DNA from: Verrucomicrobiaceae bacterium | GTDB lineage: Bacteria > Verrucomicrobiota > Verrucomicrobiia > Verrucomicrobiales > Verrucomicrobiaceae | NCBI GenBank assembly: GCA_019694165.1 | Contig: JAIBCL010000008.1 | Coordinates: forward strand, 1-64,000 | Reading direction: 5' to 3' | Length of the DNA stretch: 64,000 bases | Shown here: one piece after another, positions 7,780 through 54,782 of the stretch | How the letters are laid out: every line of letters begins with the position of its first letter | Numbering within the stretch: the first letter of the stretch is position 1 | Notes under the pieces: model-generated | Databases searched by the model: none | Seen by the model: the letters and a program-made list of their open reading frames with translations, nothing else | Told to the model about the DNA's origin: nothing | Translations under genes and position numbers: made by a program

Positions 7780-7951
7780 CCCCCTCACCCCAGCCCTCTC
7801 CCCAAGCGAGAGGGAGACGATGGCGCTGCCGCGCCAAACCAAGAAGCAGAGACACTTCTGACCCGTTGGACGCTCTTTGTATTCTTTCAAACAGCCGAGC
7901 GGCAGCTCGTCCTGCTCCCTCTCCCCTTGGGAGAGGGCTGGGGTGAGGGGG
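7780..7951. repeat. 172-bp inverted-repeat element (CCCTCACCCC type), copy 1
   Basis: The left end reads CCCCCTCACCCCAGCCCTCT and the right end is its reverse complement. Each end also contains its own small hairpin (CCCTCTCC...GGAGAGGG), giving a double-hairpin structure like paired REP elements. The left inner edge GAGGGAGACGA is shared with the copy at 10061-10234. A minus-strand open frame across this region only translates the repeat. No gene is seen in the rest of 7430-8029. Confidence 0.85.
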
Positions 7952-8029: not shown

Positions 8030-10057
8030 TCAAATCACATACCGAAACTCCGCGCTCGCCAGCAGCGCCTGGACCAGCGTTGACCACCGATACGCCGCCT
8101 TGTCTTTCTCATCCGCCGGCGTTTCGAGAGACTGCATCATTTCGATGGCGGACTTTGCCTCATCGGCGGCTGCATCACGGCTGAAGATGGCGCGATACAC
8201 GCAGCGCACGCGAAGTCCGTCATCGCGGATCGATGCGTCATCTAGGACGCGCCTGGCCAGCGCATTGGCTGCATCGACGACGAGGCGGTTGTTCATCATG
8301 AAAAGGCTCTGCGAGGGCACCGTGGTCACCTCGCGCTGGCCTTTGATCTGTGTGGGATTTGGAAAATCCCACGTCTCGTGCATCTCGGGCAACAGATCGC
8401 GGAGCACGGGCAGATAGACGGTGCGATACGGCGACGAAACGGTCAGCTTGCTGCCGGTGCGGCCCGTGTTGCCTTTGCCGCCGGTGCCGACAACCTGGAT
8501 GCCATCGGGCCGGTCGAAGGTCAGTTCGCCGCTCAATTGCAGCAGCGAATCGCGCATGACTTCGAGTTCCACGCGACGCGGACTCATGCGCCAGTGCAAT
8601 TCATTTCCCGGATCGATCTCGCTGCTCTGCGCATTCGCATCGGCACTGAGTCGATAGGCGCGGCTCATCATCATCGCGCGGATGAACTTCTTCACCGACC
8701 AGCCCGTCTCGACGAAGCGGATGGCGATGTGATCGAGCAGTTCCTCATTCGTCGGCTTCGTGCCGGTGATGCCGAAGTTATCGACGGTGCCGACAATGCC
8801 TTTACCGAAGAGATGCGCCCAGATGCGATTCGCCATCACACGCGAGGTCAGCGGGTGCGTCGGCTGGCAGATCCATTGTGCGAGCTGATAGCGGCCGCTG
8901 ATCTTGCCCTCGACCTTTGGCAGCGACGGCAAACTCGGGATCTTCAAGTCACCGCGATGCGGTGTCTTCCCTTCATCATATGGATCGCCGGCGATGCGGA
9001 TCGGACAGTTCTCGATCTTGCCTTCGCTCACGCCCATGGCGAGTCGCGCATCATAATTGTAGGTCGTGGCCTGCTTGCCGTTTTTCTGCGTCATTGACGG
9101 CTGCATCTGCATATCGTCCATCGCGTTCACTTCCCCGGGTTTGAGGAGTGTCGATGACTTTGAGGCGGACACGCTGGACTTGGTGGTCGGCAGTCGGAGC
9201 AGCCGGTCGGGATCTACATATAGATTCGCGCCGAGTTCCGCCTTGTGCGCCGTGCCCGACCACGTCTCGGTGCTGTAGAAGAGCCCGGCGAGTGCATAGT
9301 AATCGTGCTGCGTGACGGGATCCGTCTTGTGATCGTGACAGCGCGCACAGGCGATGGTCATGCCGAGGAAAGCACGCGTGGTGACGTCGATCTGATCGTC
9401 CACGCGATCCATCTTGAACTGCTCGTATTGCAGCGCCGTGAGATCGACGCAGCCGAGCGCGAGGAATCCGGTGCCGATGATGCTCTGCTTTTTCTCCTCG
9501 TCCGACTTCGCCGGCAAAAGATCGCCTGCGAGCTGCTCGGCGACAAAGCGCGTGTATGGCTTGTCGTTGTTCAACGAGTCGATGACCCAGTCACGATAGC
9601 GGAATGCCTGAATGAACGGCGCATTCCAGCTCCGGCCCACGCTGTCGGCATAGCGCACAACATCCAACCAGTGCCGAGCCCAGCGCTCGCCAAAGCGCGG
9701 CGATTGCAGCAGGCGATCAATCACTTTGGCGAAGGCCTGCTCGTCGGGTGCGGAATCATTTTCAAAAGCGGAGACTTCCTCGGGCGTCGGCAGCAGGCCG
9801 TGCAGGTCGATGGTGGCGCGACGGATCAAAGCCGCGCGAGGCGCATCGGTGTTGGGTTTGAGATTCTTCGCGGCGAGGCCGGCGAGAATGAAGCGGTCGA
9901 TGTCATCGCGCGACCACGAGTCGTTCGCGAGCTTCGGAAGCGCGGGACGGCGCAGCGGCTTGAAGGACCAGGGAAGGATGACTTTTTCGAGGACCGAGGC
10001 TGTGGCGAGTGTGCTTGCGAGAGCGATGAAGACAATCGCAAACTTTGCCCGCAACAA
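8030..10057 (-). CDS. PSCyt2/PSD1 (DUF1549 + DUF1553) protein
   Basis: A 675-residue exported protein of the PSD1 family. An N-terminal DUF1549 part (about 40-250) includes RWARHWLDVVRYAD and the haem-type motif CARCHDH. The C-terminal DUF1553 part (about 400-640) includes LTSRVMANRIWAHLFG and SQSLFMMNN. The extra N-terminal PSCyt1 haem domain of longer members is missing. I start it at TTG 10055-10057 because a signal peptide follows immediately and the length then matches the second copy (47099-49129, 676 residues). The frame continues up to ATG 10363, where it overlaps the previous stop as ATGA, but that extension is made of repeat sequence. Function of the family is unproven; it pairs with DUF1501. 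Confidence 0.88.
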   Translation of the reverse strand: MLRAKFAIVFIALASTLATASVLEKVILPWSFKPLRRPALPKLANDSWSRDDIDRFILAGLAAKNLKPNTDAPRAALIRRATIDLHGLLPTPEEVSAFENDSAPDEQAFAKVIDRLLQSPRFGERWARHWLDVVRYADSVGRSWNAPFIQAFRYRDWVIDSLNNDKPYTRFVAEQLAGDLLPAKSDEEKKQSIIGTGFLALGCVDLTALQYEQFKMDRVDDQIDVTTRAFLGMTIACARCHDHKTDPVTQHDYYALAGLFYSTETWSGTAHKAELGANLYVDPDRLLRLPTTKSSVSASKSSTLLKPGEVNAMDDMQMQPSMTQKNGKQATTYNYDARLAMGVSEGKIENCPIRIAGDPYDEGKTPHRGDLKIPSLPSLPKVEGKISGRYQLAQWICQPTHPLTSRVMANRIWAHLFGKGIVGTVDNFGITGTKPTNEELLDHIAIRFVETGWSVKKFIRAMMMSRAYRLSADANAQSSEIDPGNELHWRMSPRRVELEVMRDSLLQLSGELTFDRPDGIQVVGTGGKGNTGRTGSKLTVSSPYRTVYLPVLRDLLPEMHETWDFPNPTQIKGQREVTTVPSQSLFMMNNRLVVDAANALARRVLDDASIRDDGLRVRCVYRAIFSRDAAADEAKSAIEMMQSLETPADEKDKAAYRWSTLVQALLASAEFRYVI

Positions 10058-10060
10058 AGT

Positions 10061-10234
10061 CCCCCTCACCCCAACCCTCTCCCAATGGGAGAGGGAGACG
10101 AAGGCGCGCTGCGCCGATGCGAAAAGCACAATGAATGGCGTCCGAACATTCAAATGATCCGGCCTGCCAATCAGCTGACGGACGGCGCAAGCATCAACTC
10201 CCTCTCCCACGGGGAGAGGGCTGGGGTGAGGGGG
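10061..10234. repeat. 174-bp inverted-repeat element (CCCTCACCCC type), copy 2
   Basis: It has the same ends and double-hairpin plan as 7780-7951, with related inner edges (GAGGGAGACGA then GGCGC...GCTGCGCC) and a diverged middle. It stops 3-4 bp before the TTG taken as the start of the PSD1 gene. The purine-rich GTGAGGGGGAC at its end sits where a ribosome binding site would be, so the element may provide the translation signal for that gene. Confidence 0.85.
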
Positions 10235-10321
10235 AAGAGTTCCGTTTCGTCTTGAATCACCCACCCACCTCCTGCTTCGATCTCGATACGACATCGTGAC
10301 CCACATGAGCTTCGGGAGACT

Positions 10322-10340
10322 CCAGTCACAGAGTGCCTGG
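10322..10340. repeat. 19-bp palindrome CCAGTCACAGAGTGCCTGG
   Basis: Arms CCAG-t-CAC and GTG-c-CTGG surround AGA. It lies just downstream of the pectate-lyase-like stop codon, in the gene-free stretch 10058-10359. It could be a short REP-type palindrome or a hairpin at the 3' end of that message. There is no U-run to call it a terminator. Confidence 0.5.
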
Positions 10341-10359
10341 ACTACTTTTTGAAGTGTCT

Positions 10360-12021
10360 TCATTGAGAAAGAGGTGGACGATGTCCGACACCGATGGAGT
10401 TGCAGAGCTTAGCGACGTTTTTCGCAAACACCTCGCTGAAGATCACGCCGCTCGGCGGCACGCCCTTATTGTGCTTCATCTTCACGCCGTGCTGCACCCA
10501 CGCACCGCGCTCGTCCATTGAGGCGATGATCTCGCGCGCGGCTTTCGACAGCTCGGCAGGCGTTTCTTTGATCGGTCGTTCACCAGCAGGCTTCGGCATC
10601 GCGCTCAAGCGCCGATGCTCGGCTTCGATTTCGTCGAGGATCGGATCGATGATGAATCCGTAGTGATCCGCAGGCCGCGCATTGCTGTAGGTCATCTCGT
10701 CGCCGCCGCCTTTCTTGCGCTGGAAGTAGATCGGCTGGTTGGTCTTCAATTCATAAAAGCGCGCGAGCTTGCCGTCGGGCAGCAGCGACTTCCGCAGATA
10801 GGCCAGCGCCTTCGGGATCGGTGCTAGCCACGATTTGTCACCGGTGGCGCGGGCGAGCATCATCAGCGCCTCCATCACTGTCTCGGACTCGCGGCTGCTG
10901 ATCGCGCTCGGCTCGAAGGCGCGGCTCCAGACGGGATGCATGTCGCGGTCATACTGCTGCGCCCACGCGGGCTGCGGATCGGGCATTTGCGCGAGCAGGA
11001 AAAACCGTCCCGCCTTCTTCGCACACTCGAGGTATCGTGCGTCGCCATAGACTTCGTGCGCGCGAAGCATCGTGTGCATCGCATCGGCTACCAGATCGTC
11101 ATTGATCACGTAGCAGCCGGTGAAATCCTTTGGCCACTTGCGCGGCCAGTCGTCGGGATACGAGGCCTTTTTTACCGGGAAACCGTCGTTCGACGGCGAC
11201 TGATCGGGAAAGCGATCGTAGCTCGCCGACCATGCACCGTTCGGATACTGCGCTTGCGCGAGCGACTTCAGGCCAAAGAGCGCCGCATCGTGAATGCGCG
11301 GCTCGGCGAAGTTCAGCACCTTGTCGATGCGAACGAGAAAACGCAGCGCGGACTGGGTCGTGTCATCGTCGAGAATGGTGAGGTTTGCTTCAAACGTGCG
11401 CCGCTTCCACACGTCCCAGCCGACAGAGATGGCACGCTCATTTTCAGGAACCCGATCCGGCACTGGCTTCCAGTCGAGATCAAAGCGATGGAAGTCCTTC
11501 TTCTCAGACACAGTCTCAAAATGAGCGCCGTAATGCCAGCCGCCGGACTGAAGCTGCCTCTGCGCAAGTGCGAGCGCGGCTTCTTTCGCGTAGCCGAGGA
11601 TTTTGGCATCCTTCGTGGCCTCAAACACATCGAGCATTGCCTCGCCCACGAGCGGCGTGCCGGGCGGCTGCACCCAGATGGTGTGCTCGTCGGTAACGCC
11701 CTCGCCCTCGCGCTTCTGGAGGTCGCCGCTGAAGGCATAAACGTAGCCGCCGTGGATGCTGACGTGATCGTGGAAGAAGGCGGCGGCTTTCGTCAGCGCC
11801 CGCGTGACTTCATCACATGAGGGTTGCTGCGCGTGCGTAAGCTGGGCGGCATGGAGAAGCAGCAGTATGATGAGCGCGGTCGCGACTCGTTGGAGTCCCG
11901 CCTTCAGGCGGTTCGGACGCTCTTGGTTTCCGATTCGCGAGTCGCGCGGGCTAAGGGAGCCGGGCGACTGCGCGGCGTGACCGGCTGAAGCCGGGACTCC
12001 AACGACAGCGGCTCCGCTCAT
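10360..12021 (-). CDS. Secreted pectate-lyase-like alpha/alpha-toroid protein
   Basis: About 553 residues from ATG 12021 (the frame is open to 12081). After the signal-like segment ALIILLLLHAAQLTHA come helical-repeat motifs typical of proteins annotated as pectate lyase in these phyla: HGGYVYAFSGDL, TIWVQPPGTPLVGEA, QLQSGGWHYG and YPNGAWSASYDRFP. I assign the fold with more confidence than the activity; the substrate may be another uronic acid polymer. The 5' end is odd: a 115-bp inverted-repeat element (11889-12003) is read in frame between the ATG and the hydrophobic segment, adding about 40 residues. No convincing ribosome binding site precedes either ATG, so the start is uncertain. Confidence 0.75.
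   Translation of the reverse strand: MSGAAVVGVPASAGHAAQSPGSLSPRDSRIGNQERPNRLKAGLQRVATALIILLLLHAAQLTHAQQPSCDEVTRALTKAAAFFHDHVSIHGGYVYAFSGDLQKREGEGVTDEHTIWVQPPGTPLVGEAMLDVFEATKDAKILGYAKEAALALAQRQLQSGGWHYGAHFETVSEKKDFHRFDLDWKPVPDRVPENERAISVGWDVWKRRTFEANLTILDDDTTQSALRFLVRIDKVLNFAEPRIHDAALFGLKSLAQAQYPNGAWSASYDRFPDQSPSNDGFPVKKASYPDDWPRKWPKDFTGCYVINDDLVADAMHTMLRAHEVYGDARYLECAKKAGRFFLLAQMPDPQPAWAQQYDRDMHPVWSRAFEPSAISSRESETVMEALMMLARATGDKSWLAPIPKALAYLRKSLLPDGKLARFYELKTNQPIYFQRKKGGGDEMTYSNARPADHYGFIIDPILDEIEAEHRRLSAMPKPAGERPIKETPAELSKAAREIIASMDERGAWVQHGVKMKHNKGVPPSGVIFSEVFAKNVAKLCNSIGVGHRPPLSQ
11889..12003. repeat. 115-bp element with GTTGGAGTCC ends, inside the 5' end of a gene
   Basis: It begins GTTGGAGTCCCG and ends CGGGACTCCAAC, with CTTCAGGC/GGCTGAAG inside each arm. 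The same end type (GTTGGAGTCCAGGCTT...) bounds the 117-bp element at 53381-53497, which also lies between a start codon and a hydrophobic export segment. Confidence 0.82.
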
Positions 12022-23121: not shown

Positions 23122-25049
23122 TGCGAAGGCGTCAGAGCTGCCGCAGCTTCGGCGGCTTTGATCGAGGCGAGCAGATTCTCGTCCGGAGTGCACAGCGTTG
23201 AAGCGATGCGGAAATGCTCAAGCGCGCGGCCGGGTTGGTTGGTGCTCAGGTAGATGCGCCCCAGCATGATGTGAGGCATGGGATTGTCGGGCGCGGTTTC
23301 GACCGCCTGCTTCAAGACTGGCAGCGCGCGCCCTACGTCGCCGACGCCGGCATAGGCGATTCCGAGCGTGTAGGTCACGGGCGGGGAATCGGCGGCGGCG
23401 CGATCCCCGTCGATGAGCCGGTGCATGGTGTCGAGCGCCTCGCGGGGCTGGTTGAGTCGAAGCAGGGAGTTGGAGAGATTGAACATGCTTGTGTGATCGT
23501 CCGGCTTGATGCGCAGCGCCTCTCGGTAGCAGCCGACGGCCTCCTGGTCTCGACCCGCATCGGCGAGGTGAGCGCCGAGGCTGCCCCACGCGCGATGGTT
23601 GTGCGGGCTCTTGCGCACGGAATCGCTCCACAAGCTCTCGCCGGAGCGCCAGACGGAATTGCGCGCGCATGTGATGCATGCGTGCGCGGTCACGCAAAGG
23701 AAGGCGGCGGCGGGTGCCAGCCGCCGGGCAGCGCGCGGCCCGTGCGTGCGGACGGCATCGAGCGCGCAGGCCATCACGACGAAGATGCCGATCGACGGGA
23801 GGTAGGACCGATGGTCTGCCATGAGGTCCGGAAGCGGCACGAGGCCGGACGAAACGGAGACGGTGATGAAGAACCAGAGCGTGAAGGCAAAGGCGGACGC
23901 CGCGCGCAAGTCATCCCGCCAGCGCCGCCACGCCCACCACGAGGTGACGAGGACGCCGGTGAGTTCCGCAAGGGCCAGCAGCACCGGCGGCTCCGCGAGG
24001 GAATGGTGGAGAGACCACGCCGGATCCGCATTGAGACCTGCGGGCCAAAGCACGCGGTGCAGATAAGCCGCCACGACGGTGATCTGTGTGACGAGGTAGT
24101 ACCAGTGAGGCACCGCGTCGTCCCCGGCATTCACGATGTTCACCGCGCTGGCGAGCACGGAGTCCGCCGGATGCTGCGCCATCGCGGCGAGGACGACCAT
24201 CAGCGGCACCACCGGCAGGAAGATCAGCAGCGGCCAGGCACGACCGATGGCGGCCCGCGGCCGCACACCGCCCGTCAGGGCATCGAGCACAACTGCGACG
24301 AGCGGCGCGGTGAAGACGCACTCCTTCGTCATCATGCCGGCGGCGACGGCGGCCATGGCGCCCAGCCGCCGCATCCACCTTGCACGGCGATCACAAGACT
24401 CGAGCGAGGCAAAGTAGAGACCAAGCGCGAGCAGGAAGAACAGCGTGCTGAGCGACGTGAAGCGCTGGATGATGTAAGTGACCGATTCCGTGGCCAGCGG
24501 ATGAGCGGCGAAGAGAAGCGACGCCGCGGCTGGAACAAAAACGATGGTCCCCGCCGGCAATTGGCGGGCATGAGCACCGCGCGCGAGGAGCTTCCGCAGC
24601 AGCAGCCAGACGAGCGCCGAGTTCAGCGCGTGGATGATGATGTTTGCCACGCGGTACCAGCGCGGGTTGAGTCCGTCGAAGATGTAGTTCAGGCGGAAGG
24701 TGGCGTAGGCCACCGGGCGCAGGATGAAGTTCGTGGCCAAGTCGGGATCGACACCGAGACGCGCCGGGAGGGCGACGAAGTCCGCCAGATGCGCCAGCCG
24801 CGCGAACGTGCCGGCTTCCTTCAGAAACGGATTGCCTTCGATGTAAAGGTGATCGTCGAAGAGCATCGGGAAGTCCGCCGTCCATGCGTACAAAGCGGTG
24901 CAGAGCAAGACGATGAGCGCGGGCACGATGAGCCGGCTCATGCCGCGCCCTTCGGGCGCGGGGTTCGCGCCCGAAGGCGGAGGTGCCGTTGCGACGGCGC
25001 GCCTTGCCGGGTGTCGTGGATCTTGTCTGATTCGTGAGGGTGCCGCCAT
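23115..25049 (-). CDS. TMTC-like membrane protein with C-terminal TPRs, paralog A
   Basis: A 644-residue protein with a cytoplasmic tail, about ten or more membrane helices up to residue 460, then four TPR units (WGSLGAHLADAGRDQEAV...ALEHF). The first external loop has FDDHLYIEGNP, the acidic pair expected of GT-C glycosyltransferases. HPLATESVTYIIQRFTSLSTLF, TKECVFTAP and LMADHRSYLPSIG are shared with three paralogs next door. Eukaryotic TMTC proteins of this plan O-mannosylate secreted proteins, so protein glycosylation from a lipid-linked sugar is a reasonable inference. It is the most diverged and last gene of the series, and overlaps the end of purL by seven bases. A later ATG (24941) is a possible start. 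Confidence 0.85.
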   Translation of the reverse strand: MAAPSRIRQDPRHPARRAVATAPPPSGANPAPEGRGMSRLIVPALIVLLCTALYAWTADFPMLFDDHLYIEGNPFLKEAGTFARLAHLADFVALPARLGVDPDLATNFILRPVAYATFRLNYIFDGLNPRWYRVANIIIHALNSALVWLLLRKLLARGAHARQLPAGTIVFVPAAASLLFAAHPLATESVTYIIQRFTSLSTLFFLLALGLYFASLESCDRRARWMRRLGAMAAVAAGMMTKECVFTAPLVAVVLDALTGGVRPRAAIGRAWPLLIFLPVVPLMVVLAAMAQHPADSVLASAVNIVNAGDDAVPHWYYLVTQITVVAAYLHRVLWPAGLNADPAWSLHHSLAEPPVLLALAELTGVLVTSWWAWRRWRDDLRAASAFAFTLWFFITVSVSSGLVPLPDLMADHRSYLPSIGIFVVMACALDAVRTHGPRAARRLAPAAAFLCVTAHACITCARNSVWRSGESLWSDSVRKSPHNHRAWGSLGAHLADAGRDQEAVGCYREALRIKPDDHTSMFNLSNSLLRLNQPREALDTMHRLIDGDRAAADSPPVTYTLGIAYAGVGDVGRALPVLKQAVETAPDNPMPHIMLGRIYLSTNQPGRALEHFRIASTLCTPDENLLASIKAAEAAAALTPSHQ

Positions 25050-25101
25050 TCAGCGTGGTCGAGGAGTCTGCGTCGTGCAGAGTGCGCATCAGCGCCTGTG
25101 G

Positions 25102-25138
25102 TGGCAATGACACACGCCGCGTCGTGCCGGGCGCCACA
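25102..25138 (-). promoter_or_regulatory. Shared leader element upstream of paralog A (degenerate)
   Basis: On the minus strand this matches the leader of the other three paralogs at TGTGGCGCC-GGC-CGAC and TTGCCA. The central dyad has decayed to GACACACGCCGCG on the plus strand (25109-25121). It is 53 bp from the start codon. Confidence 0.5.
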
Positions 25139-25174
25139 ATTGCCGCGCTCCTCGTGCGTGCGCTTGTGCGCGTG

Positions 25175-27151
25175 CTACCGGATCTGGAAGGGTCCGCCGG
25201 ATGGTACGGAGGCTGGGCCGTTGCCGGCCAGCGCATTTTCCGCCAGCTCGATGCACTCGAGCAGCAGCTTGTCGGGAACCTTCAATCTTGCGGCGGTGCG
25301 ATAATGCTCGAGCGCCAGCGCAGGCCGGTTGGTACGCAGATACACGGCCCCGAGCGCTTGATGGCAGTTCGCATCTTCGGGCATCACGGCCAGGATGTCC
25401 TTGTAGATGGCGATGGCCTCGTCGTAGCGGCCCACTCCGGCGAGGCCAAGCGCGACGGTGAAGACGACGTGCGGCTGCCGGGCAGCCCGCTCATCCAGCC
25501 GGATGAGCTTGAGGCTGGCATCCAGCGACTCCTGAGGCCGTCCGAGGCGCAGCAGCGAGTTCGAGAGATTGAACATGCCGTGCTGGAAGCGCGGCTCCAT
25601 GGCGATGGCTTTTTGGAAATACCTCACCGCCTCTTCCTCGCGGCCCGCGTTGGAAAGCGCGGCGCCGAGATTGCCCCACACGCGATATTTTTGCGGACTC
25701 TTCTCCGCCGTATCGGTCCACAGGCTCACGGACGTGCGCCAGACTTCATTGCGCGCGCACGTTGCCCAGGAGAGCGCCGCCACGCAGGCGAGGGCTGCGG
25801 CGGGCACGGCGGGACGGACGATGCGGGCAAAGCGGCCGGAAGAGGTGCGCAGCATGTCGAGCAGCGCGGCGACCGCCACGAAGACACCGACGGATGGCAG
25901 ATAGGTGCGGTGGTCCGCCATCAGATCCGGCAGCGGCACGATGCCTGAGGACGCCGAGATGGTGATGAAAAACCAGAGCGTGAACACCGCGGCGATCCTC
26001 GCGCGCACATCCGCGCGACGCGCGATGCCGAGCCAGACCGCGCCCACGACGACGGCCGCGAGCGCGGCCAGCGCACGCAGCACCGCCGGCTCCAGCAGCG
26101 AGCGATGGAGCGGCCAGTCGGGATCGAGGTTCAGCCCCGCAGGCCAGAAGATGCGCCCCAGGTAGGCGGCCACGACGGTGATCTGCGAGACGAGGTAGTG
26201 CCAGTGCTCCAGCGGATTCTCGCGCGAGTTCACGATGTTGATCGCGGCATCGAGGCTGAATGTCCCCGCGTGCATGGCCATGGAGATGATCACGACCATG
26301 GCCGGAATGACCGGCAGGCACAGCAGCAGAGGCCGTGCACGCCGGACCGCGGACAGGGGCGGCGTGGCGTTCACCCCCCAGTCGAGGAGCACCGCCACCA
26401 CCGGCGCGGTGAAGGTGCATTCCTTCGTGAACATGCCCGCCAGCAGCGATGCGACGGCCGCCGCCTTCAGCACGGCCGCCCGCCGGCGCGATGCCGCGCG
26501 CAGCGCTGCGAAGAATACGCATAGCGTAAGCAGGAAGAAGAACGCGCTCAGCGACGTGAACCGTTGCACGATGTACGTGACGGACTCGGTGGCCAGCGGA
26601 TGCGCGGCGAAGAGCAGCGCAGCCACGGTGGGAATGAATGCACGCGATCCATGTGGCGGAGCGGGGCTGCCGCCGCCGGTCCACAGCAGGAGGCGCAGGA
26701 GCGCGAAGACTAGCACGGAATTCAGCGCATGGATCACGATGTTCACCGCCCGGTACCAGCGCGGATTGAAGCCATCGAAAGCGTAGTTCAGCCACAGCGT
26801 GGCGTAGGCCGCCGGGCGCATCATGAAGTTCACCGCCAGGTCGGGATCCGCGCCCGCCCGGGCCGGAAAGCAGGCGAACTCCGTAAGGTGCAGCGGGTAG
26901 CTGAAGCTGCGTGCATCCTTGAAGATCGGATTGTTCTTCATGTACATCTCGTCGTCGAAGACCATCGGGAAATCGGCGGTCCATGCGTAGAGTCCCGCGC
27001 AGAGCAGGGTGATCACCAACACCGCCGGCGCGGGCACCAGCCGGCCGGCGTGATGCGGCGCAGCCTCCGGCGGCTCGTCCGCGGGCGCACGCGGGGTCTT
27101 CCGGCGTCCGCTCGTCCGCGTCTGGCTGGTGGTGTTTGAGCTGGCTGGCAT
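25175..27151 (-). CDS. TMTC-like membrane protein with C-terminal TPRs, paralog B
   Basis: 658 residues with the same plan as its neighbours: a basic, Pro-rich cytoplasmic tail to about residue 40, first membrane helix ending LYAWTADFPM, GT-C acidic pair in FDDEMYMKNNP, then HPLATESVTYIVQRFTSLS, TKECTFTAP and LMADHRTYLPSVG, then four TPRs (WGNLGAALSNAGREEEAV..., FTVALGLAGVGRYDEAI..., ALGAVYLRTNRPALAL). Closest by eye to paralog C, including the first 15 bases of coding sequence. No ribosome binding site is evident at the ATG, but the sequence from the leader to the ATG is conserved with C, which supports this start. Predicted role is membrane glycosyl transfer guided by the TPR part. Confidence 0.87.
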   Translation of the reverse strand: MPASSNTTSQTRTSGRRKTPRAPADEPPEAAPHHAGRLVPAPAVLVITLLCAGLYAWTADFPMVFDDEMYMKNNPIFKDARSFSYPLHLTEFACFPARAGADPDLAVNFMMRPAAYATLWLNYAFDGFNPRWYRAVNIVIHALNSVLVFALLRLLLWTGGGSPAPPHGSRAFIPTVAALLFAAHPLATESVTYIVQRFTSLSAFFFLLTLCVFFAALRAASRRRAAVLKAAAVASLLAGMFTKECTFTAPVVAVLLDWGVNATPPLSAVRRARPLLLCLPVIPAMVVIISMAMHAGTFSLDAAINIVNSRENPLEHWHYLVSQITVVAAYLGRIFWPAGLNLDPDWPLHRSLLEPAVLRALAALAAVVVGAVWLGIARRADVRARIAAVFTLWFFITISASSGIVPLPDLMADHRTYLPSVGVFVAVAALLDMLRTSSGRFARIVRPAVPAAALACVAALSWATCARNEVWRTSVSLWTDTAEKSPQKYRVWGNLGAALSNAGREEEAVRYFQKAIAMEPRFQHGMFNLSNSLLRLGRPQESLDASLKLIRLDERAARQPHVVFTVALGLAGVGRYDEAIAIYKDILAVMPEDANCHQALGAVYLRTNRPALALEHYRTAARLKVPDKLLLECIELAENALAGNGPASVPSGGPFQIR

Positions 27152-27190
27152 CAGTGGCTGGGCTGCGAACCTGCGCCGCCACGCGTCTGG

Positions 27191-27228
27191 CTGACAAAAG
27201 ACATGTCGTGTAGTGCCCGGCGCTACAC
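27191..27228 (-). promoter_or_regulatory. Shared leader element upstream of paralog B
   Basis: Minus strand reads GTGTAGCGCCGGGC then ACTACACGACATGTCTTTTG, nearly identical to the leader of paralog C. It lies 40 bp before the ATG. The dyad here is GACATGTCGTGTA on the plus strand (27200-27212), with one imperfect half. Likely a promoter or regulator-binding region. Confidence 0.62.
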
Positions 27229-27261
27229 GCCTGGTTTGTCATGGGTGACACGCCGCGATTC

Positions 27262-27362
27262 CCGCCCCCTGTGGAAACAGCGCGCCCGCAGAGGCGAATC
27301 GCGGGATGACGCTGGCGACGGACTCCGTGACCAGCGGCGTATGCACGGCGAAGATCGGCGCG
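27262..27362 (-). pseudogene. Relic fragment of a further TMTC-like paralog
   Basis: The minus-strand translation IFAVHTPLVTESVASVIPRF and the following SAGALF align with FAAHPLATESVTYIIQRFTSLSTLF of the four intact copies, and the DNA matches the corresponding part of paralog B at roughly 70 percent by eye (for example GACGGACTCCGTGACCAGCGG). Nothing else of the gene is detectable. It sits between the end of paralog C and the leader of paralog B, and looks like the remains of a duplication or deletion. Confidence 0.65.
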
Positions 27363-27426
27363 CGAAGCAGCGAACGTCTTCTTTCGCAGATCCAGGCGCC
27401 GAGGATGTGCGCGTTGCGGCATCGAG

Positions 27427-29400
27427 CTATCGCAGCCGGATCAGCGGCACGGATGCCGGGAAACTGGCGGCACCACCGAGCATCTCCTCGGCCATCTTGA
27501 TGGAAGCGAGCAGAGACTCGTCGGGCGCCGCGCTGCGTGCGGCGGCTGCGCGGAAGTGCTCGAGCGCGAGGGCGGGGCGGTTGGTGTTCAGATAGACCGA
27601 CCCCAGCGCCTGATGGCACCGCACATCGTCCGGCCGCACGGCGAGTATCTCCTTGAAGACGGCCGCCGCGTCATCGTAGCGGCCCACTCCCGCCAGACCG
27701 AGACCCACGGTAAACACCACGGTGGGATGCCGGGCCGCACGCTCATCCATGCGCACCAGCCGGACGCTCGCTTCGAGCGACTCCTGCGGCCGGCCAAGCC
27801 TGAGCAGCGAATTCGACAGGTTGAAAATCCCGGCTTGAAACCGGGGCTCGATCTTGAGGGCCTGCTCGTAGCACTTCACGGCTTCCACTTCGTTGCCGTG
27901 GTTCGAGTGCGCGGCGCCGAGATTGCCCCAGACTCGGTACTTGCGCGGGCTCTTTTCCGTCGTGTCAGTCCACAGGGACTCGGCTGTGCGCCAGGTTTCA
28001 TTCCGCACGCATGTGCTTGAGGCAAGCGCCACCACGCAGGCGGCCGCCACGACGGACACGGCTCCGCGCGAGAGACCCGGGAGCGGTCCGGCGTGACGGA
28101 CACGGTCCATGATGACTGCGACGAGCACGAAAATTCCGATGGATGGAAGGTACGCGCGGTGATCCGCCATCAGGTCGGGCAGAGGCACCACGCCCGATGA
28201 CATCGAGACGGTGACGAAGAACCAGATAACACCCGTGAGGGCGAGCCGCACACGCACATCGTCACGCCGCGCGCGCCACCACCCGCCGACGCCGCCGAGC
28301 AGCAGAGCGAAGACGGCGAGGGAGCGCAGCACCGGCGCCTCCAAGAGCGAGCGATGCAGCGGCCAGTCGGGATCGAGATTCAGGCCCGCGGGCCAGATGA
28401 TACGTCCGAGATAGGCGGCCACCACCGTCGTCTGGGTGACCGCGTAGTGCCAGTGCTCGAACGGCTCCACCTTGCCGTTCACCAGATGAACGGCGTCGTG
28501 CAGAGCGATGTGTCCGCCGTGCTGGGCGGCGGCGATGAGGATCACCAGCAGCGGAATGAGCGGCATGAAGGCGAGCAGCGGCAGCGCGCGCCACAAGGCC
28601 GTGCGCAGCGGCGCGCGGTTCACCAGCCAGTCGATGCACACGGCCATCACCGGCGCGGTGAAGACGCACTCCTTTGACAGCATCCCGAGAAGCAGCGCAG
28701 CCACCGAGGCCGCACGCAGGGCGCTGCGCGCCACGCGCGCCGCAGCCTGGAGGGATGCGAAATACAGGCACAGCGTGAGCAGGTAGAAAAGCGTGCTCTG
28801 CGAGGTGAAGCGCTGCACGATGTAGGTGACCGATTCCGTGGCGATCGGATGAGCGGCGAACAAGAGCGCCGTCACGACCGGAATGAAGGCCGCCGCGCCG
28901 GGCCGCGCGGCGGCTCCGGCTTCACGACGCCGCAGCAGCAGATGCAGCAGCGCGTACACGAGCACCGCGCCGCCGGCGTGGATGACGATGTTCACGGCGC
29001 GATACCAGCGGGGTTTGAAGCCGTCGAAGAGCCAGTTCAGATGCAGCGTGCCGTACGTCGCCGGGCGCATCATGAAATTCGTGGCGAGATCGAGATCGAG
29101 GCTGAGTTTTGCCGGCCGGTTCGCAAACTCCGTGAAGCGCAGCGGGTAGCTGAAGCTGCGCGAGTCTTTGAAGAGCGGGTTGTTGATCAGGTACGGCTCG
29201 TCATCGAAGACCATCGGAAAGTCCACGGTCCACGCATAAAGTCCCGCGCAGAGCAGGAAGATGAGCAGCGCGACCGCCGCATGAACCAGCCGGCGCGCAC
29301 CATGCGGCGCAGCCGCCGACTCACCCGGCCCCGGCGCACGTCGATCCGCGCGGCCCCCGGCCGACATCTTCTGGCTGGCATTGTGTGAACAGGCTGGCAT
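27427..29400 (-). CDS. TMTC-like membrane protein with C-terminal TPRs, paralog C
   Basis: 657 residues. After a tail with RADRRAPGPG comes the first helix and LYAWTVDFPM, the loop FDDEPYLINNP, HPIATESVTYIVQRFTSQSTLF, SKECVFTAP, and LMADHRAYLPSIG, followed by four TPRs ending ALGSVYLNTNRPALALEHF. The strong matches to paralog B run through the upstream region as well, so B and C probably come from the most recent duplication. The predicted topology puts the acidic pair outside the cytoplasm and the TPRs after the last helix. Acceptor proteins and donor sugar are unknown. Confidence 0.87.
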   Translation of the reverse strand: MPACSHNASQKMSAGGRADRRAPGPGESAAAPHGARRLVHAAVALLIFLLCAGLYAWTVDFPMVFDDEPYLINNPLFKDSRSFSYPLRFTEFANRPAKLSLDLDLATNFMMRPATYGTLHLNWLFDGFKPRWYRAVNIVIHAGGAVLVYALLHLLLRRREAGAAARPGAAAFIPVVTALLFAAHPIATESVTYIVQRFTSQSTLFYLLTLCLYFASLQAAARVARSALRAASVAALLLGMLSKECVFTAPVMAVCIDWLVNRAPLRTALWRALPLLAFMPLIPLLVILIAAAQHGGHIALHDAVHLVNGKVEPFEHWHYAVTQTTVVAAYLGRIIWPAGLNLDPDWPLHRSLLEAPVLRSLAVFALLLGGVGGWWRARRDDVRVRLALTGVIWFFVTVSMSSGVVPLPDLMADHRAYLPSIGIFVLVAVIMDRVRHAGPLPGLSRGAVSVVAAACVVALASSTCVRNETWRTAESLWTDTTEKSPRKYRVWGNLGAAHSNHGNEVEAVKCYEQALKIEPRFQAGIFNLSNSLLRLGRPQESLEASVRLVRMDERAARHPTVVFTVGLGLAGVGRYDDAAAVFKEILAVRPDDVRCHQALGSVYLNTNRPALALEHFRAAAARSAAPDESLLASIKMAEEMLGGAASFPASVPLIRLR

Positions 29401-29440
29401 CCGTGGATGAGCGGCGATCCTGCGCCATCACCCGCCTGCC

Positions 29441-29477
29441 TGGCAAAAGACATGGCCTGTCGCGCCCGGCGCCACAC
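29441..29477 (-). promoter_or_regulatory. Shared leader element upstream of paralog C
   Basis: Minus strand GTGTGGCGCCGGGCGCGACA then GGCCATGTCTTTTGCCA, 41 bp before the ATG. It contains a perfect 13-bp dyad, GACATGGCCTGTC on the plus strand (29449-29461; GACA-N5-TGTC read from the minus strand). It is the best-preserved example with that of paralog D. Confidence 0.65.
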
Positions 29478-29524
29478 TGCGGACGCCTGCCGCGATTTCC
29501 GCACCTGGCCGTGCTCTCCCGCGG

Positions 29525-31519
29525 TCACTGCGGCAAATTCAGACGCATGAGCGGCGCGGCGGCCGGGGTGGAAATGGCGAGCGCTCTCTCCGCCATCCTG
29601 ATGCTCTCGTGCAGACGCGCATCCTGCGGCCGGCGCAGGGCCACGCGGCGCAGGTGCTCCAGGGCGCGGGCCGGGCGTCCGTTGTCGAGCAGGATCACGC
29701 CGAGGGCCAGATTGCTCCCTTCGTGTTCCGGGTTGTGCTGAAGGATGGTGTCGAAGGCCGATATCGCATCATTGATCTTCCCCGTGCCGGCGAGGCCGAG
29801 GGCGACGATGAACAACACGTCGGAGTTTCTCCCCCTCGGCATGGCGAAGAGCTTGAGGCTGTGATCCAGGGACTCTTTGGGGCGACCGAGTTTCAGCAGC
29901 GTGCCGGAGAGGTTCAGCAGAGCGGTGCGGAAGTCCGGCTTTATCTCCAGCGCCTTTTCAAAACACGCCCTGGCTTCCTCCTGGCGGCCTGCTTCGGCGA
30001 AGGCCGCGCCCAGGTTCCCCCATGCGCGATGGTTTCCGGGACTCCTCGAGACGGTGTGCTCCCACACGCTCTGATTCGATCTCCACACCTCGTTCCGCAC
30101 GCAGGTGGCGGCGCACAGGGCGACGACGGCGACTGCGGCGCCACCACAGGCCAGAGTGCGCACCAGACGCGGCCGCCACTCGAGCGTCCGCAGCATGTCG
30201 AGCAGCGCGGCGACGGCGACGAACACGCCGGCCGAGGGCAGATGGGCGCGGTGGTCGGCCATCATGTCAGGCAGGGGCACCATCCCCGACGAGACGCACA
30301 CGGTGATGAAAAACCAAAGGGTGAAAACAAAGACAAGCCGCGCACGAACATCGTCGCGACGACGACGCCAGAACCATGCGGCGGAAGCAACGACGGCGGC
30401 GAGAAAGGCGAGGGCTTTCAGCACGGAGACATCGGCCAGCGAGCGAAAATGCGGCCAGGACGGATCGAGATGAAGGCCCGCGGGCCAGAAGATGCTCCGC
30501 AAATACGCGGCCACGACGGTGATCTGGGTGACGATGTAGTGCCAGTGGGAGATTGGCTGATCGAGGGAGTTCACCACATTCACCACGCCCTGGATCGAGA
30601 AGTGGCCGTCGTTTTGTGCCGTCGCCACGAGGATGACGAGCACGGGAACGACCGGCAGGCACGCCAGGAGCGGCAGCGCCCGCCATGCCGCGGTGCGGAG
30701 ACGCGCGCCCAGAACGATGTGATCGATCAACACGGCCATGAACGGCGCGGTGAAGGTGCACTCCTTCGTCTGCATCCCCAGCAGCACGGCGAGGACCGAT
30801 CCCGTCCGCCACGCGATGACTCCGCGCGGTGAAGCCGTCCGCAGTGATGCGAAATGCAGCCCAAGCGCGAGCAGATAGAAGAGCGCGGCCAGCGAAGTGA
30901 AACGCTGGATGATGTAGGTGACCGATTCGGTGGCAAGCGGATGCACCGCGAAGAGCAGTGCCGCGACGAGCGGGATGAAAAGACGGGATCCCGGCGGCTG
31001 CGCGCATGAGCCGCCGCGCACCCTGCCGAGCAGCACGCGCAGCAGCGCGTACAGCACAAAGCACGAGGCGGCGTGGATGAAGATGTTCACCACGCGATAC
31101 CACCGTGGATTGAATCCGTCGAAGATGTAGTTGAGGCGAAACGTGGCGTAAGCCACCGGACGCATGATGAAGTTCGTGGCCAGATCAGGGTCCGTCCCCA
31201 TCTTCCCCGGCCGGGTGGCGAACTCGGAGAAACGCGATGGATAGTCGAAGCTCGCCGCATCCCGAAACACCGGATTGTTCACGAGATAATAGTCGTCGTC
31301 GAAAACCAGCGGGAAGTCCGCCGTCCATGCGTACAGCGCGGCGCAGAGCACGCCGAGCACCAGCGCGACGGATGCGTGCGTGCGCCAGCGGCCCGCCGGG
31401 ACGACCATGTCCGGCAGCGGTGCCGCAGGGGTGCGGGATGCCCTGCCGGCCGGCTTGCGTGCCTTGGTGATGCGATTCTCATGGCGGACTCGTGTGGAAA
31501 ATTGGAAGGGGCTGGACAT
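29525..31519 (-). CDS. TMTC-like membrane protein with C-terminal TPRs, paralog D
   Basis: 664 residues from ATG 31519. The frame is open to 31570, but the start at 31519 is preferred because the leader shared by all four copies lies at 31565-31600 and would otherwise be inside the gene. Landmarks are LVFDDDYYLVNNP, HPLATESVTYIIQRFTSLAALF, TKECTFTAP, MMADHRAHLPSAG and four TPRs (WGNLGAAFAEAGRQEEARACF...). It is the first of the four in transcription order, 105 bp after the response regulator gene, and so the copy most directly tied to the two-component system. Confidence 0.87.
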   Translation of the reverse strand: MSSPFQFSTRVRHENRITKARKPAGRASRTPAAPLPDMVVPAGRWRTHASVALVLGVLCAALYAWTADFPLVFDDDYYLVNNPVFRDAASFDYPSRFSEFATRPGKMGTDPDLATNFIMRPVAYATFRLNYIFDGFNPRWYRVVNIFIHAASCFVLYALLRVLLGRVRGGSCAQPPGSRLFIPLVAALLFAVHPLATESVTYIIQRFTSLAALFYLLALGLHFASLRTASPRGVIAWRTGSVLAVLLGMQTKECTFTAPFMAVLIDHIVLGARLRTAAWRALPLLACLPVVPVLVILVATAQNDGHFSIQGVVNVVNSLDQPISHWHYIVTQITVVAAYLRSIFWPAGLHLDPSWPHFRSLADVSVLKALAFLAAVVASAAWFWRRRRDDVRARLVFVFTLWFFITVCVSSGMVPLPDMMADHRAHLPSAGVFVAVAALLDMLRTLEWRPRLVRTLACGGAAVAVVALCAATCVRNEVWRSNQSVWEHTVSRSPGNHRAWGNLGAAFAEAGRQEEARACFEKALEIKPDFRTALLNLSGTLLKLGRPKESLDHSLKLFAMPRGRNSDVLFIVALGLAGTGKINDAISAFDTILQHNPEHEGSNLALGVILLDNGRPARALEHLRRVALRRPQDARLHESIRMAERALAISTPAAAPLMRLNLPQ

Positions 31520-31564
31520 GCGGCGTCGATCGACGCTCGCAATCTGGCTCCGCAGCCTTTGTGG

Positions 31565-31600
31565 CTGCAAAAGACATGCCCTGTCACGTTCATCGCCACA
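31565..31600 (-). promoter_or_regulatory. Shared leader element upstream of paralog D
   Basis: Minus strand TGTGGCGATGAACGTGACAG then GGCATGTCTTTTGCAG, 46 bp before the chosen ATG. It carries the perfect dyad GACATGCCCTGTC on the plus strand (31573-31585). The left half diverges from the other copies, while the dyad and TCTTTTG are conserved. Confidence 0.6.
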
Positions 31601-39154: not shown

Positions 39155-39195
39155 AAACACAACTCGCACGCCGAAGTGCGTGGACTCTGCATGTT

Positions 39196-39560
39196 GGAAC
39201 GCCGAAGTCGCGGCAGCGTCCTGGAGTGCTCCAGCCCTCTGGAGCTTTCCGCAGGCCAGTCACCACTCGAAAGCGGCAGAGGGCTGCCGCAGTCCAGGAC
39301 GCTGGCGCGCGTTTGCCTGCGCATGAGGCACTCGAACACGCGGAGGGGCTTCGACTGCATGAACAACGGTTGAGTCGGTGGGAACGCCGAAGTCGCGGCA
39401 GCGTCCTGGAGTGATCCAGCCCTCTGGAGCTTTCCGCAGGCCAGTCACCACTCGAAAGCGGCGGAGGGCCGCCGCAGTCCAGGACGCTGCCGCGCGTTTG
39501 CCTGGCCGTCAGGCACTCGCGCATGTAGAGGGGCGTCGAGGGCATGAACACGGTCAAGTC
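39196..39560. repeat. Tandem duplication of a ~185-bp element
   Basis: Copy 1 (39196-39380) and copy 2 (39381-about 39560) begin GGAACGCCGAAGTCGCGGCA and agree closely for over 100 bp, then diverge partly around GGCACTCG. Each copy contains inverted arms, AGCGTCCTGGA and TCCAGGACGCT (39215-39225 and 39293-39303 in copy 1), so each is itself a hairpin-bounded unit. Short open frames in both directions only translate the repeat. This and the hairpin before it fill the 515-bp gene-free stretch 39084-39598. Confidence 0.82.
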
Positions 39561-52716: not shown

Positions 52717-53544
52717 TCAGGGTTTCGTGGGTCCAATGATCGCCTTCTCGCCTTCCCATCGCAGCGTGAGATTGCCGCAGAGCACGAGGTAATCGAGGGC
52801 TTCACTCAAGATGCCATTCTTGAAGGTGATCGAGAGCTTGGGCTCGTTCTTCGGAGCGGTGTAGGCGATCTCGATGCGGGCTTGCTTCGCGATGTCGGCG
52901 AAGAGCTGAGCTGCGGGCTGATCGCGGACATCGAGGGTGACGCGGATGTCCTTGGACGACTTGGCTTTGGCGGGAGCGGCGGCAGCGAAGGTGCGCTTTG
53001 GCAGCACGGCGGGAAGTTCGTGTGGCGCACCGGCTTGGATCCAGCGGCGCACGACGTCTTTCTCCTCACCGGTGAGCGGTGGAGTCTTCGGATGATCGTC
53101 GGGCGGCATCTCGCCTTCATTGACGAGGCGGAAGAGTTCCGACTTCTGCGGCTTGCCGCGAATGACGTAGTCCTCGTTGTCGGCCATGCGCTTGAGGTCG
53201 AGCACGTAGCCAAATTTGCCTTCGGGCTTCTTGAGCTGACTGCCGTGGCATTCGTTGCACTTGTGTTCGAAGATGACGTGGACGTTGCCTGCGAGATCGA
53301 GCGCCTTCTCTTTCGAGACGGGTTGTTGTGCAACGACAGAGGCTGTCGCCCCGATCAACAACAGCGCAATGAATGCCCACGTTGGAGTCCAGGCTTTAGC
53401 CGACCCACTCCGATGCGCGCAGCGCGAGGAGTGGAAGTCTCGGTTCGAACGCTCGGGCGTTCTTGCCTCGGGGGCGGCTGAAGCCTGGACTCCAACTTCA
53501 CGCCCCAATGCGTGGGGTAGATGCGAGGGCATGATGCGCTTCAT
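52717..53544 (-). CDS. c-type cytochrome (PSCyt1-like) with C-terminal STN-like domain
   Basis: 275 residues. The haem motif CNECHG is at 96-101, with the distal Met probably in EGEMPPDD. This is a PSCyt1-like domain (about 80-175), exported by the hydrophobic segment WAFIALLLIGATASVVA. Residues 195-275 (IRVTLDVRDQPAAQLFADIAKQA...) resemble the short STN-type domain of secretins and receptors. ATG 53544 overlaps the stop of the oxidoreductase gene (ATGA). Between ATG and export segment a 117-bp repeat element is read in frame, adding 39 residues. No usable start exists after it, so this extension is probably made. It may take electrons from the molybdenum enzyme. Confidence 0.85.
   Translation of the reverse strand: MKRIMPSHLPHALGREVGVQASAAPEARTPERSNRDFHSSRCAHRSGSAKAWTPTWAFIALLLIGATASVVAQQPVSKEKALDLAGNVHVIFEHKCNECHGSQLKKPEGKFGYVLDLKRMADNEDYVIRGKPQKSELFRLVNEGEMPPDDHPKTPPLTGEEKDVVRRWIQAGAPHELPAVLPKRTFAAAAPAKAKSSKDIRVTLDVRDQPAAQLFADIAKQARIEIAYTAPKNEPKLSITFKNGILSEALDYLVLCGNLTLRWEGEKAIIGPTKP
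53381..53497. repeat. 117-bp element with GTTGGAGTCC ends, in frame at the start of the cytochrome gene
   Basis: It begins GTTGGAGTCCAGGCTTTAGC and ends GGCTGAAGCCTGGACTCCAAC. The length is exactly 39 codons. The end type is the same as at 11889-12003. It encodes basic, Ser/Arg-rich sequence (residues about 17-55). Confidence 0.85.
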
Positions 53545-54782
53545 GCGACGACCTCAAACCTCCTCACTTGGATGCCGTTCTTTCCCGCCTTCTGCAAAGG
53601 TCTCGGCTCGGGTTGAGCAAAGCCATTCATGTCCACGCTGCGCGCGCGGACTTCGTAGCGGCCGGGCTTGAGGTCTTTGATCATCGCGTGATACGAGCAC
53701 ATGCCGTAACGCGGTGGCCAGGTGAGAGGTTGGCCGCGTTGCGGATCAAAGGCGAGCACTTGCTTCGGATCGATGCCTTTGGGCAGCACGTTCTTCCAGT
53801 CGGGCTCGGCTTCGAGTTCGCAGGGCTGCCATGGCGCGTTCAGCAATTCATCGGCATCATCCGCGAGCGGCTTCGGTTCGCCTTCGATGCGACGAAGCCA
53901 ATACTCCACGCGCTGCACGCCGCTGAGTCCGCTAATGACCTGACCGGTGACAAAGACCGGATTGCCTGCGGCGATCTTTTGTCCGTCGAGGCTCTTGTCC
54001 ACATACGCCGCCGTTTTCAGAAACGAGTCGGGATCGTTGTTGCCGCTCGAATACGTGTCGTTGTTGCGCGCGTCGTTGGTGACAAAGATGTGCTGCAGCC
54101 ACTTGATGGATTTGTAGCCATGCGACCACGGCACGATCATGCGCACCGGCCCGCCGCGCTCCAGCGATAGCGGCTCGCCATTCACGCGATACGCGAGGAA
54201 CACCGGCAAATCGCCGGGCGCGGTCTCGAAACACTGCGTGTAGCTCACGGACGATTTGAAGACCTGCTTCGGGTCGTGGTTGTGATAGCCCCAGAAGTAG
54301 ATGCGACGCACGTTGTTCATCTTGCCGCACAGCTTCAGCACCTCGCGCAAGGGCACGCCCGTCCACACGCCTTGACCGAGTGGTGCGTCGATGTTCAGGC
54401 ACTGCATCGCCTTGAGGAAGTGAACCTCGTGCTTCTTGCCGAGTTTCATCAGCGTCGCCAAATCCAGCGCAGTGCCGTCGGCGATGGTGAGAGACTTTGC
54501 GATCGTCGCTGGCACCTTCGTGTGCGGCTCTTCGATGAACGCGTCCGCCGTGATCTCGCAGCGCCAGGTGTCGGGTGTGAGGCGTGCGTTGATCAAGGCG
54601 TCGCCTGCCAGCGTGTGCGGCTTCGGCGTGCCGCGCGAGACATCGTAGAAGTTGTGATCCGGCGTGAGAATCGGATGCAGCTTGGGCATCGCCTCTGTCG
54701 CAGCTTCAGCGCGTGATGGCGTCAAGCTCGGCAGCAAAACGCTGCTCGCGGCTGTGGTAAGGAAGTGTCGGCGAGTGGGCAT
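53541..54782 (-). CDS. Tat-exported molybdopterin oxidoreductase, sulfite oxidase/MsrP superfamily
   Basis: 413 residues. Twin-arginine signal TRRHFLTTAASSVLLPS. The molybdopterin domain (about 40-270) has HNFYDVSRGTP, the probable Mo-ligand C128 in KAMQCLN, GVWTGVPL and GGPVRMIVPWSHGYKSIKWL, which align with MsrP (YedY) and sulfite oxidases. A C-terminal Ig-like dimerisation domain (about 285-410: ISGLSGVQRVEYWL, MNGFAQPEP) is present as in sulfite oxidase and absent in MsrP. So it is more likely an oxidase or dehydrogenase for sulfite or a related compound. The cytochrome gene overlaps it by four bases and is a plausible electron acceptor. Confidence 0.88.
   Translation of the reverse strand: MPTRRHFLTTAASSVLLPSLTPSRAEAATEAMPKLHPILTPDHNFYDVSRGTPKPHTLAGDALINARLTPDTWRCEITADAFIEEPHTKVPATIAKSLTIADGTALDLATLMKLGKKHEVHFLKAMQCLNIDAPLGQGVWTGVPLREVLKLCGKMNNVRRIYFWGYHNHDPKQVFKSSVSYTQCFETAPGDLPVFLAYRVNGEPLSLERGGPVRMIVPWSHGYKSIKWLQHIFVTNDARNNDTYSSGNNDPDSFLKTAAYVDKSLDGQKIAAGNPVFVTGQVISGLSGVQRVEYWLRRIEGEPKPLADDADELLNAPWQPCELEAEPDWKNVLPKGIDPKQVLAFDPQRGQPLTWPPRYGMCSYHAMIKDLKPGRYEVRARSVDMNGFAQPEPRPLQKAGKNGIQVRRFEVVA

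Follow-up and report, generated by a model that had tools for sequence, protein, structure and literature searches.

The REP doublet at the front of a cytochrome c gene

Can a mobile hairpin repeat become part of an exported protein without destroying it? The question is raised by a cytochrome c gene in a Verrucomicrobiaceae bacterium (contig JAIBCL010000008.1, positions 1 to 64,000; this whole stretch of 64,000 nucleotides is referred to as the window, and its genome as G000). In this gene a 116-bp inverted repeat lies in frame between the start codon at 53544, which overlaps the upstream gene as ATGA, and the hydrophobic export segment. The reading that we consider probable, and for which we argue below, is a tolerated in-frame insertion of REPIN type in a cytochrome that is translated with a 55-residue extension and still exported. 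The relevant features are:

52717-53544, minus strand: PSCyt1 cytochrome c gene of 275 aa, host of the insertion (Pfam PF07635, 25.3 bits, cut-off 22).
53541-54782, minus strand: Oxidored_molyb gene upstream of the cytochrome gene; its TGA overlaps the cytochrome ATG in the ATGA at 53544-53541.
53381-53496, minus strand: REP doublet (REPIN-type), 116 bp; outer arms at 53381-53406 and 53471-53496, 92% complementary, with 64 nt between them.
53329-53373, minus strand: hydrophobic export segment FIALLLIGATASVVA, followed by QQ, aligned with the ordinary leaders of orthologs.
About 53368-53532, minus strand: the whole stretch missing from orthologs, 165 nt or 55 codons, delimited by ortholog comparison; its exact ends cannot be placed.

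The palindrome runs GTTGGAGTCCAGGC...GCCTGGACTCCAAC, and codons 17 to 55 of the cytochrome gene (53496-53380) read through it. The original prediction had located the element correctly, between the start and the export signal, but had placed its end at 53497, one base too far. The repeat is not a product of chance, since the decamer of its arms occurs four times in the window against 0.21 expected (none of 100 shuffles reached four) and the predicted RNA fold of the element has an energy of -68.9 kcal/mol with z = -7.8 (none of 200 shuffles was as good).

Orthologs date the extra stretch to the window gene

The original prediction proposed a comparison with orthologs as a check. Our ortholog search covered 57 genomes, including the window's own, and gave three clear orthologs, while scanning named genomes yielded four records, of which three coincide with these. 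The four independent orthologs are G010/JAEUHN010000032.1, G017/CAUJJC010000302.1, G030/CANGYJ010000004.1 and JAGKWZ010000221.1. All four start at a conserved ATGA and lack the element, which bears out the claim that the overlap fixes the ATG at 53544. Their leaders up to the AQQ point comprise only 18-19 residues (MKRIVLLLVASIVATNAQQ, MKHLFLLLIAMTVAASAQQ, MKRLALLLVAAISAPAQQ and MKRLALLLIAAISAHAQQ), whereas the window protein needs 74 residues to reach the same point, and thus 55 codons have been added. Because the orthologs keep both the start and a short leader free of any insert, the change is an insertion in the window gene.

The predicted size of 39 codons or 117 bp agrees with the codons that the element occupies, but the doublet itself is 116 bp and the additional stretch is longer. 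It is made up of a hairpin-bearing flank of 36 nt (53497-53532), the doublet, and approximately 12 nt on the other side. Approximately 48 of the 165 inserted bases thus lie outside the doublet and have no explanation, although part of the 36-nt flank is found once more, at C59:3257-3277 (20 of 21 bases). The N-terminal extension includes VGVQASAAPEAR... and was predicted to be repeat-encoded and basic; the 39 residues that the element encodes are just mildly basic (6 K/R, 3 D/E). The cytochrome very probably carries the 55 residues as an accidental front end.

The repeat belongs to a REP family

To define the family we searched the window's genome for the arms allowing at most three mismatches, which gave 35 matches at 24 loci, while the reversed control pattern gave none. 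One more locus came from a DNA search, and these 25 loci form our working set, weaker BLAST matches being left out. The arms are GTTGGAGTCC-hairpins with compensatory changes in the stem. In the 113 arms taken from the 25 own loci and from 42 loci of relatives, positions 13 and 20 of the stem form a G-C pair 83 times and a C-G pair 25 times, and are paired in 109 arms, a covariation that identifies the arms as REP hairpins. Arms with at most one mismatch are present in 12 of 56 relatives.

As in REPINs, two inverted REPs form one hairpin that is repeated in the genome, and each REP is palindromic and bears a conserved tag at its 5' end, which is seen from the covariation in the stem and the column counts of 113 arms. 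The extragenic location of REPINs is not shared: 13 of the 25 loci look noncoding, 11 are in coding frames and one is length-neutral. We use REPIN as a name for the structure, with no claim of membership in any described REPIN family. Since GGAG stands at the GTAG position, the element is not filed in the GTAG REP superfamily, and our literature searches found no paper on this GGAG family. Of twelve in-frame 5' arms read by hand, nine use the VGV frame and three the WSP frame; LES is not used.

The genome of a relative, G024, contains a RAYT-like gene with the same kind of REP arms on both sides; it scores 75.4 bits with NCBIfam REP_Tyr_transpos, just below the cut-off of 80, and has no Pfam match. 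There are 16 matches with at least 47% identity to it, and 13 loci of this close group were inspected. REP-like arms (at most five mismatches to the window's arm) are close by in 12 of them, with GTAG at the tag position in seven and GGAG in five by hand reading, and the 13th locus is near a contig end. Among 17 loci of distant homologs (L175-L191) none has paired arms adjoining the gene. The window's genome, a 96%-complete assembly, has no member of the close group; its nearest match to the G024 gene is 34% identical and is not flanked by these REPs, and no REPs lie within 1.5 kb of its Y1_Tnp genes (L009-L024) at up to four mismatches. The lack of a mobiliser in this assembly counts against our account, in which transposition of the doublet by a RAYT is an inference.

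Copies in other genes

The 25 loci were sorted by ORF reading, codon statistics and homologs into six homolog-supported in-frame insertions, five that are in frame without a homolog check, one length-neutral case and thirteen that look noncoding. Besides the cytochrome gene, the window has one more carrier, and the copies lacking a homolog check are given here by contig position:

10360-12081, minus strand: Pec_lyase-like gene, 573 aa, carrier of the second copy (PF09492, 45.5 bits).
11889-12003, minus strand: the window's other REP doublet, placed in this gene after the start codon and before the hydrophobic segment, as in the cytochrome gene.
C56:119102, C56:143294, C61:90227, C6:260024 and C47:49676: in-frame copies lacking a homolog check.

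There is no ATG, GTG or TTG between the 11889-12003 copy and the hydrophobic core that follows it, and orthologs of the pectate-lyase-like gene have a short leader, e.g. MKANRRTRSVTSLFTWL... in G001. The copy in mannose-6-phosphate isomerase is located inside the catalytic domain; same-genus G001 reads VQVHPPAHLATELKGEPKTEMW here, without roughly 50 extra residues, and no second gene in the window's genome matches at E 1e-20. Likewise Mfd, with a single match in its genome, carries a copy after FAAKL that is absent in G001, G023 and G033. For the copy in a class I methyltransferase, PDB homologs continue without some 70 residues. In the squalene-hopene-cyclase-like (SHC-like) gene the linker with the copy is shorter in G005 and G012, but the linker of G006 is itself long, and this insertion site is thus variable.

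Only six clusters of the window's genome, among them the later removed C32:158336, came out of an automated flank test as in frame on either side. The test misses N-terminal copies, which lack coding sequence on their 5' side, and for these we relied on hand reading and homologs. Among the 42 loci of relatives, only two are fully in frame inside genes, sulfatase-like in G030 and PVC-type dehydrogenase-like in G028 (both names come from hand reading rather than a family search), while in a third the flanks are in frame and the element itself contains a stop.

Two copies deserve separate mention. The isomerase insert (L140 1586-2674, G000:C32) looks nested, in that partial outer arm copies, GTTGGAGTCGAT and GAACTCCAAC, flank an inner doublet. 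The locus G000:C32:158336-158468 (L098 1837-1969) has inverted REP arms (21/21 and 20/21) inside a DUF7133/cytochrome/ThuA gene, and was dropped as an in-gene insertion when ortholog comparison showed no change in length. The orthologs in G010 and G017 align without gaps, with the arms on native codons and a native spacer. Chance is an unlikely origin of these arms, which would have to have been written over coding sequence at constant length.

Probable translation, function and export of the extended cytochrome

Both features of PSCyt1 membership are present in the cytochrome, PF07635 above its cut-off and an intact CxxCH motif, read CNECH. Its structure model is confident only from about residue 194, and is uninformative for the N-terminal extension (mean pLDDT 45.6, residues 1-193 below 50). 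In the model the C-terminal domain resembles secretin N0/STN (fold search matches to PilQ N0 and DotD-like domains), which fits an envelope protein. The gene at 52717-53544 would pair a PSCyt1 domain with a secretin N0/STN-like C-terminal domain.

Both the hydrophobic core and the region of the cleavage site (..A-Q-Q) match up with the ordinary leaders of the orthologs. The core FIALLLIGATA has a Kyte-Doolittle mean of 2.50, lower than the 2.75-3.25 of the orthologs, and there are two net positive charges among the 15 residues preceding it. The simplest reading is a Sec leader with a long n-region, and the cytochrome would continue to be exported despite the insert. The original prediction that the extension may change export or make the protein membrane-anchored is not supported by the leader, nor is it needed to account for it.

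A different role for the element is that the hairpin has been retained as a regulator of translation or mRNA stability of exported proteins, its coding capacity being a side effect. This is compatible with a tolerated insertion, and it could draw on the strong fold in a coding mRNA and on the three of 25 loci where, by hand reading, an element lies between start and hydrophobic segment (the cytochrome gene, 11889-12003 and C47:49676). Other copies, however, are mid-gene in cytoplasmic enzymes, and no insertion is seen conserved between species, and we regard such a role as unlikely. The bolder version, that recurrent insertion between start and core gives envelope proteins a hairpin-coded n-region that alters export timing or translation, appears to us more doubtful still; if true, a selfish repeat would act as a portable regulator of secretion.

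It could also be argued that the insertion has disabled the gene and that we are looking at a young pseudogene, as the n-region has been split from the core and a very stable hairpin near the start could lower translation. This we find improbable. The frame is open, the CNECH motif is intact, and the dN/dS of the mature cytochrome is 0.065 between G000 and its nearest ortholog G010 and 0.086 for G000-G017, against 0.107 for G010-G017. Nor are nonsynonymous differences from G017 in excess relative to G010 (20.5 against 21.0), although a recent loss of function would not yet register in these values. Such strong purifying selection suggests that the cytochrome is probably translated and functional, with a long n-region in its signal peptide.

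Still less probable is that the element amounts to a hairpin in the 5' untranslated region, with the real start at a downstream TTG or non-standard codon and an upstream frame that is open by chance. In favour of this, most frames of the arms are free of stops and intergenic copies too are crossed by ORFs, PMC3733652 warns of frequent misannotation of N-terminal REPs, and in the window gene 8030-10363 translation could plausibly begin at a TTG behind a different repeat. Codon by codon, however, neither the element nor the stretch from it to the hydrophobic core contains an in-frame ATG, GTG or TTG. The sole later TTGs, codons 62-63, fall within the core and would leave little beyond LIGATASVVA as a leader, so that the earlier claim that no alternative start follows the element holds, and the ATGA is conserved in all four orthologs. 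With a fixed start, an element in frame, no credible later start and purifying selection, the best reading is that the extension is translated, although with 55 codons rather than 39. An artefact of the draft assembly can practically be dismissed: repeats can be misassembled and there are 66 contigs, but every in-gene copy that we inspected has flanks and a spacer unlike those of the others and keeps the frame, where misassembly would usually break frames.

For the tolerated insertion, the course of events would be as follows. A non-autonomous REP doublet, presumably mobilised in trans by a REP-associated tyrosine transposase, would have entered the cytochrome gene directly behind its fourth codon or so, together with some flanking DNA. 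The gene stayed open because the added length is divisible by three and several frames of the arms are free of stops. With the old hydrophobic core and cleavage region persisting, Sec routing would most likely continue, and the extension would serve as a long n-region and be cut off together with the leader. The insertion would then be a selfish event that the gene tolerates; with this one included, homologs support at least six in-frame insertions of this REP family in the genome.

Relation to known repeats

This kind of event is known, in that the literature describes in-frame REP doublets in another verrucomicrobium and similar palindromes in Rickettsia. REPINs, RAYTs, tag recognition, Rickettsia palindromic elements (RPEs) and leader fusions are treated in PMC3116915, PMC2817692, PMC8266576, PMC10969869, PMC2759123 and PMC2229807. 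The closest parallel is PMC3733652, which reports REPs inside ORFs, those with GTAG mostly in Opitutus terrae (Verrucomicrobia) and those with CGTC mostly in R. conorii, with many in repair genes. As here, single and dimeric REPs lie within ORFs of a verrucomicrobium, DNA-repair genes included, and in O. terrae and other species intragenic REPs are commoner at N-termini than at C-termini. The O. terrae dimers differ in their tag (GTAG, here GGAG) and in their inserts, typically 20-30 residues against 55 here. The paper also warns of a start problem in N-terminal cases; here the start is pinned by the ATGA overlap and by orthologs.

REPINs (PMC3116915) are likewise dispersed and consist of two inverted REPs that fold into a single hairpin, and related REPs adjoin RAYT genes in relatives of our genome. 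Those of Pseudomonas are described as extragenic, whereas about 11 of 25 loci here are in reading frames, and a cognate RAYT was not found in the window's own genome. Rickettsia palindromic elements (reviewed in PMC10969869 and PMC2229807) are palindromes of 100-150 bp that have inserted in frame into conserved genes of unrelated kinds, which seem to tolerate them; the host is unrelated, and we liken them by behaviour alone. In enterobacteria, a small mobile RU repeat adds to the N-terminus of the putative exported protein YPO1552 (PMC2759123), but it forms part of the signal sequence, while the doublet here precedes an intact old core.

Selfish DNA ending up inside proteins is a known route that has received little study, in this phylum as well. 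The cytochrome offers a clean and checkable case, a mobile hairpin repeat read into a protein that probably works, and the copies in Mfd and in the catalytic domain of the sole matching mannose-6-phosphate isomerase make the tolerance of proteins to such inserts directly testable.

Other repeats in the window

Another palindromic family, CCCTCACCCC...GGGTGAGGGG, is found at 7780-7951 and 10060-10235, upstream of the leader of gene 8030-10363, and translates as PHPSPLPVGEG / SLSHWERVGVRG. This gene was rejected as a further case of a repeat before a signal, since a plausible TTG start after its repeat makes the repeat probably extragenic. Positions 23412-31600 hold four tandem gene-size units of about 2.1-2.25 kb, with 61-78% identity to the reference copies in most of their repeat families, and at 39188-39550 there are two direct copies of 173 nt, 90% identical, with nested inverted repeats.
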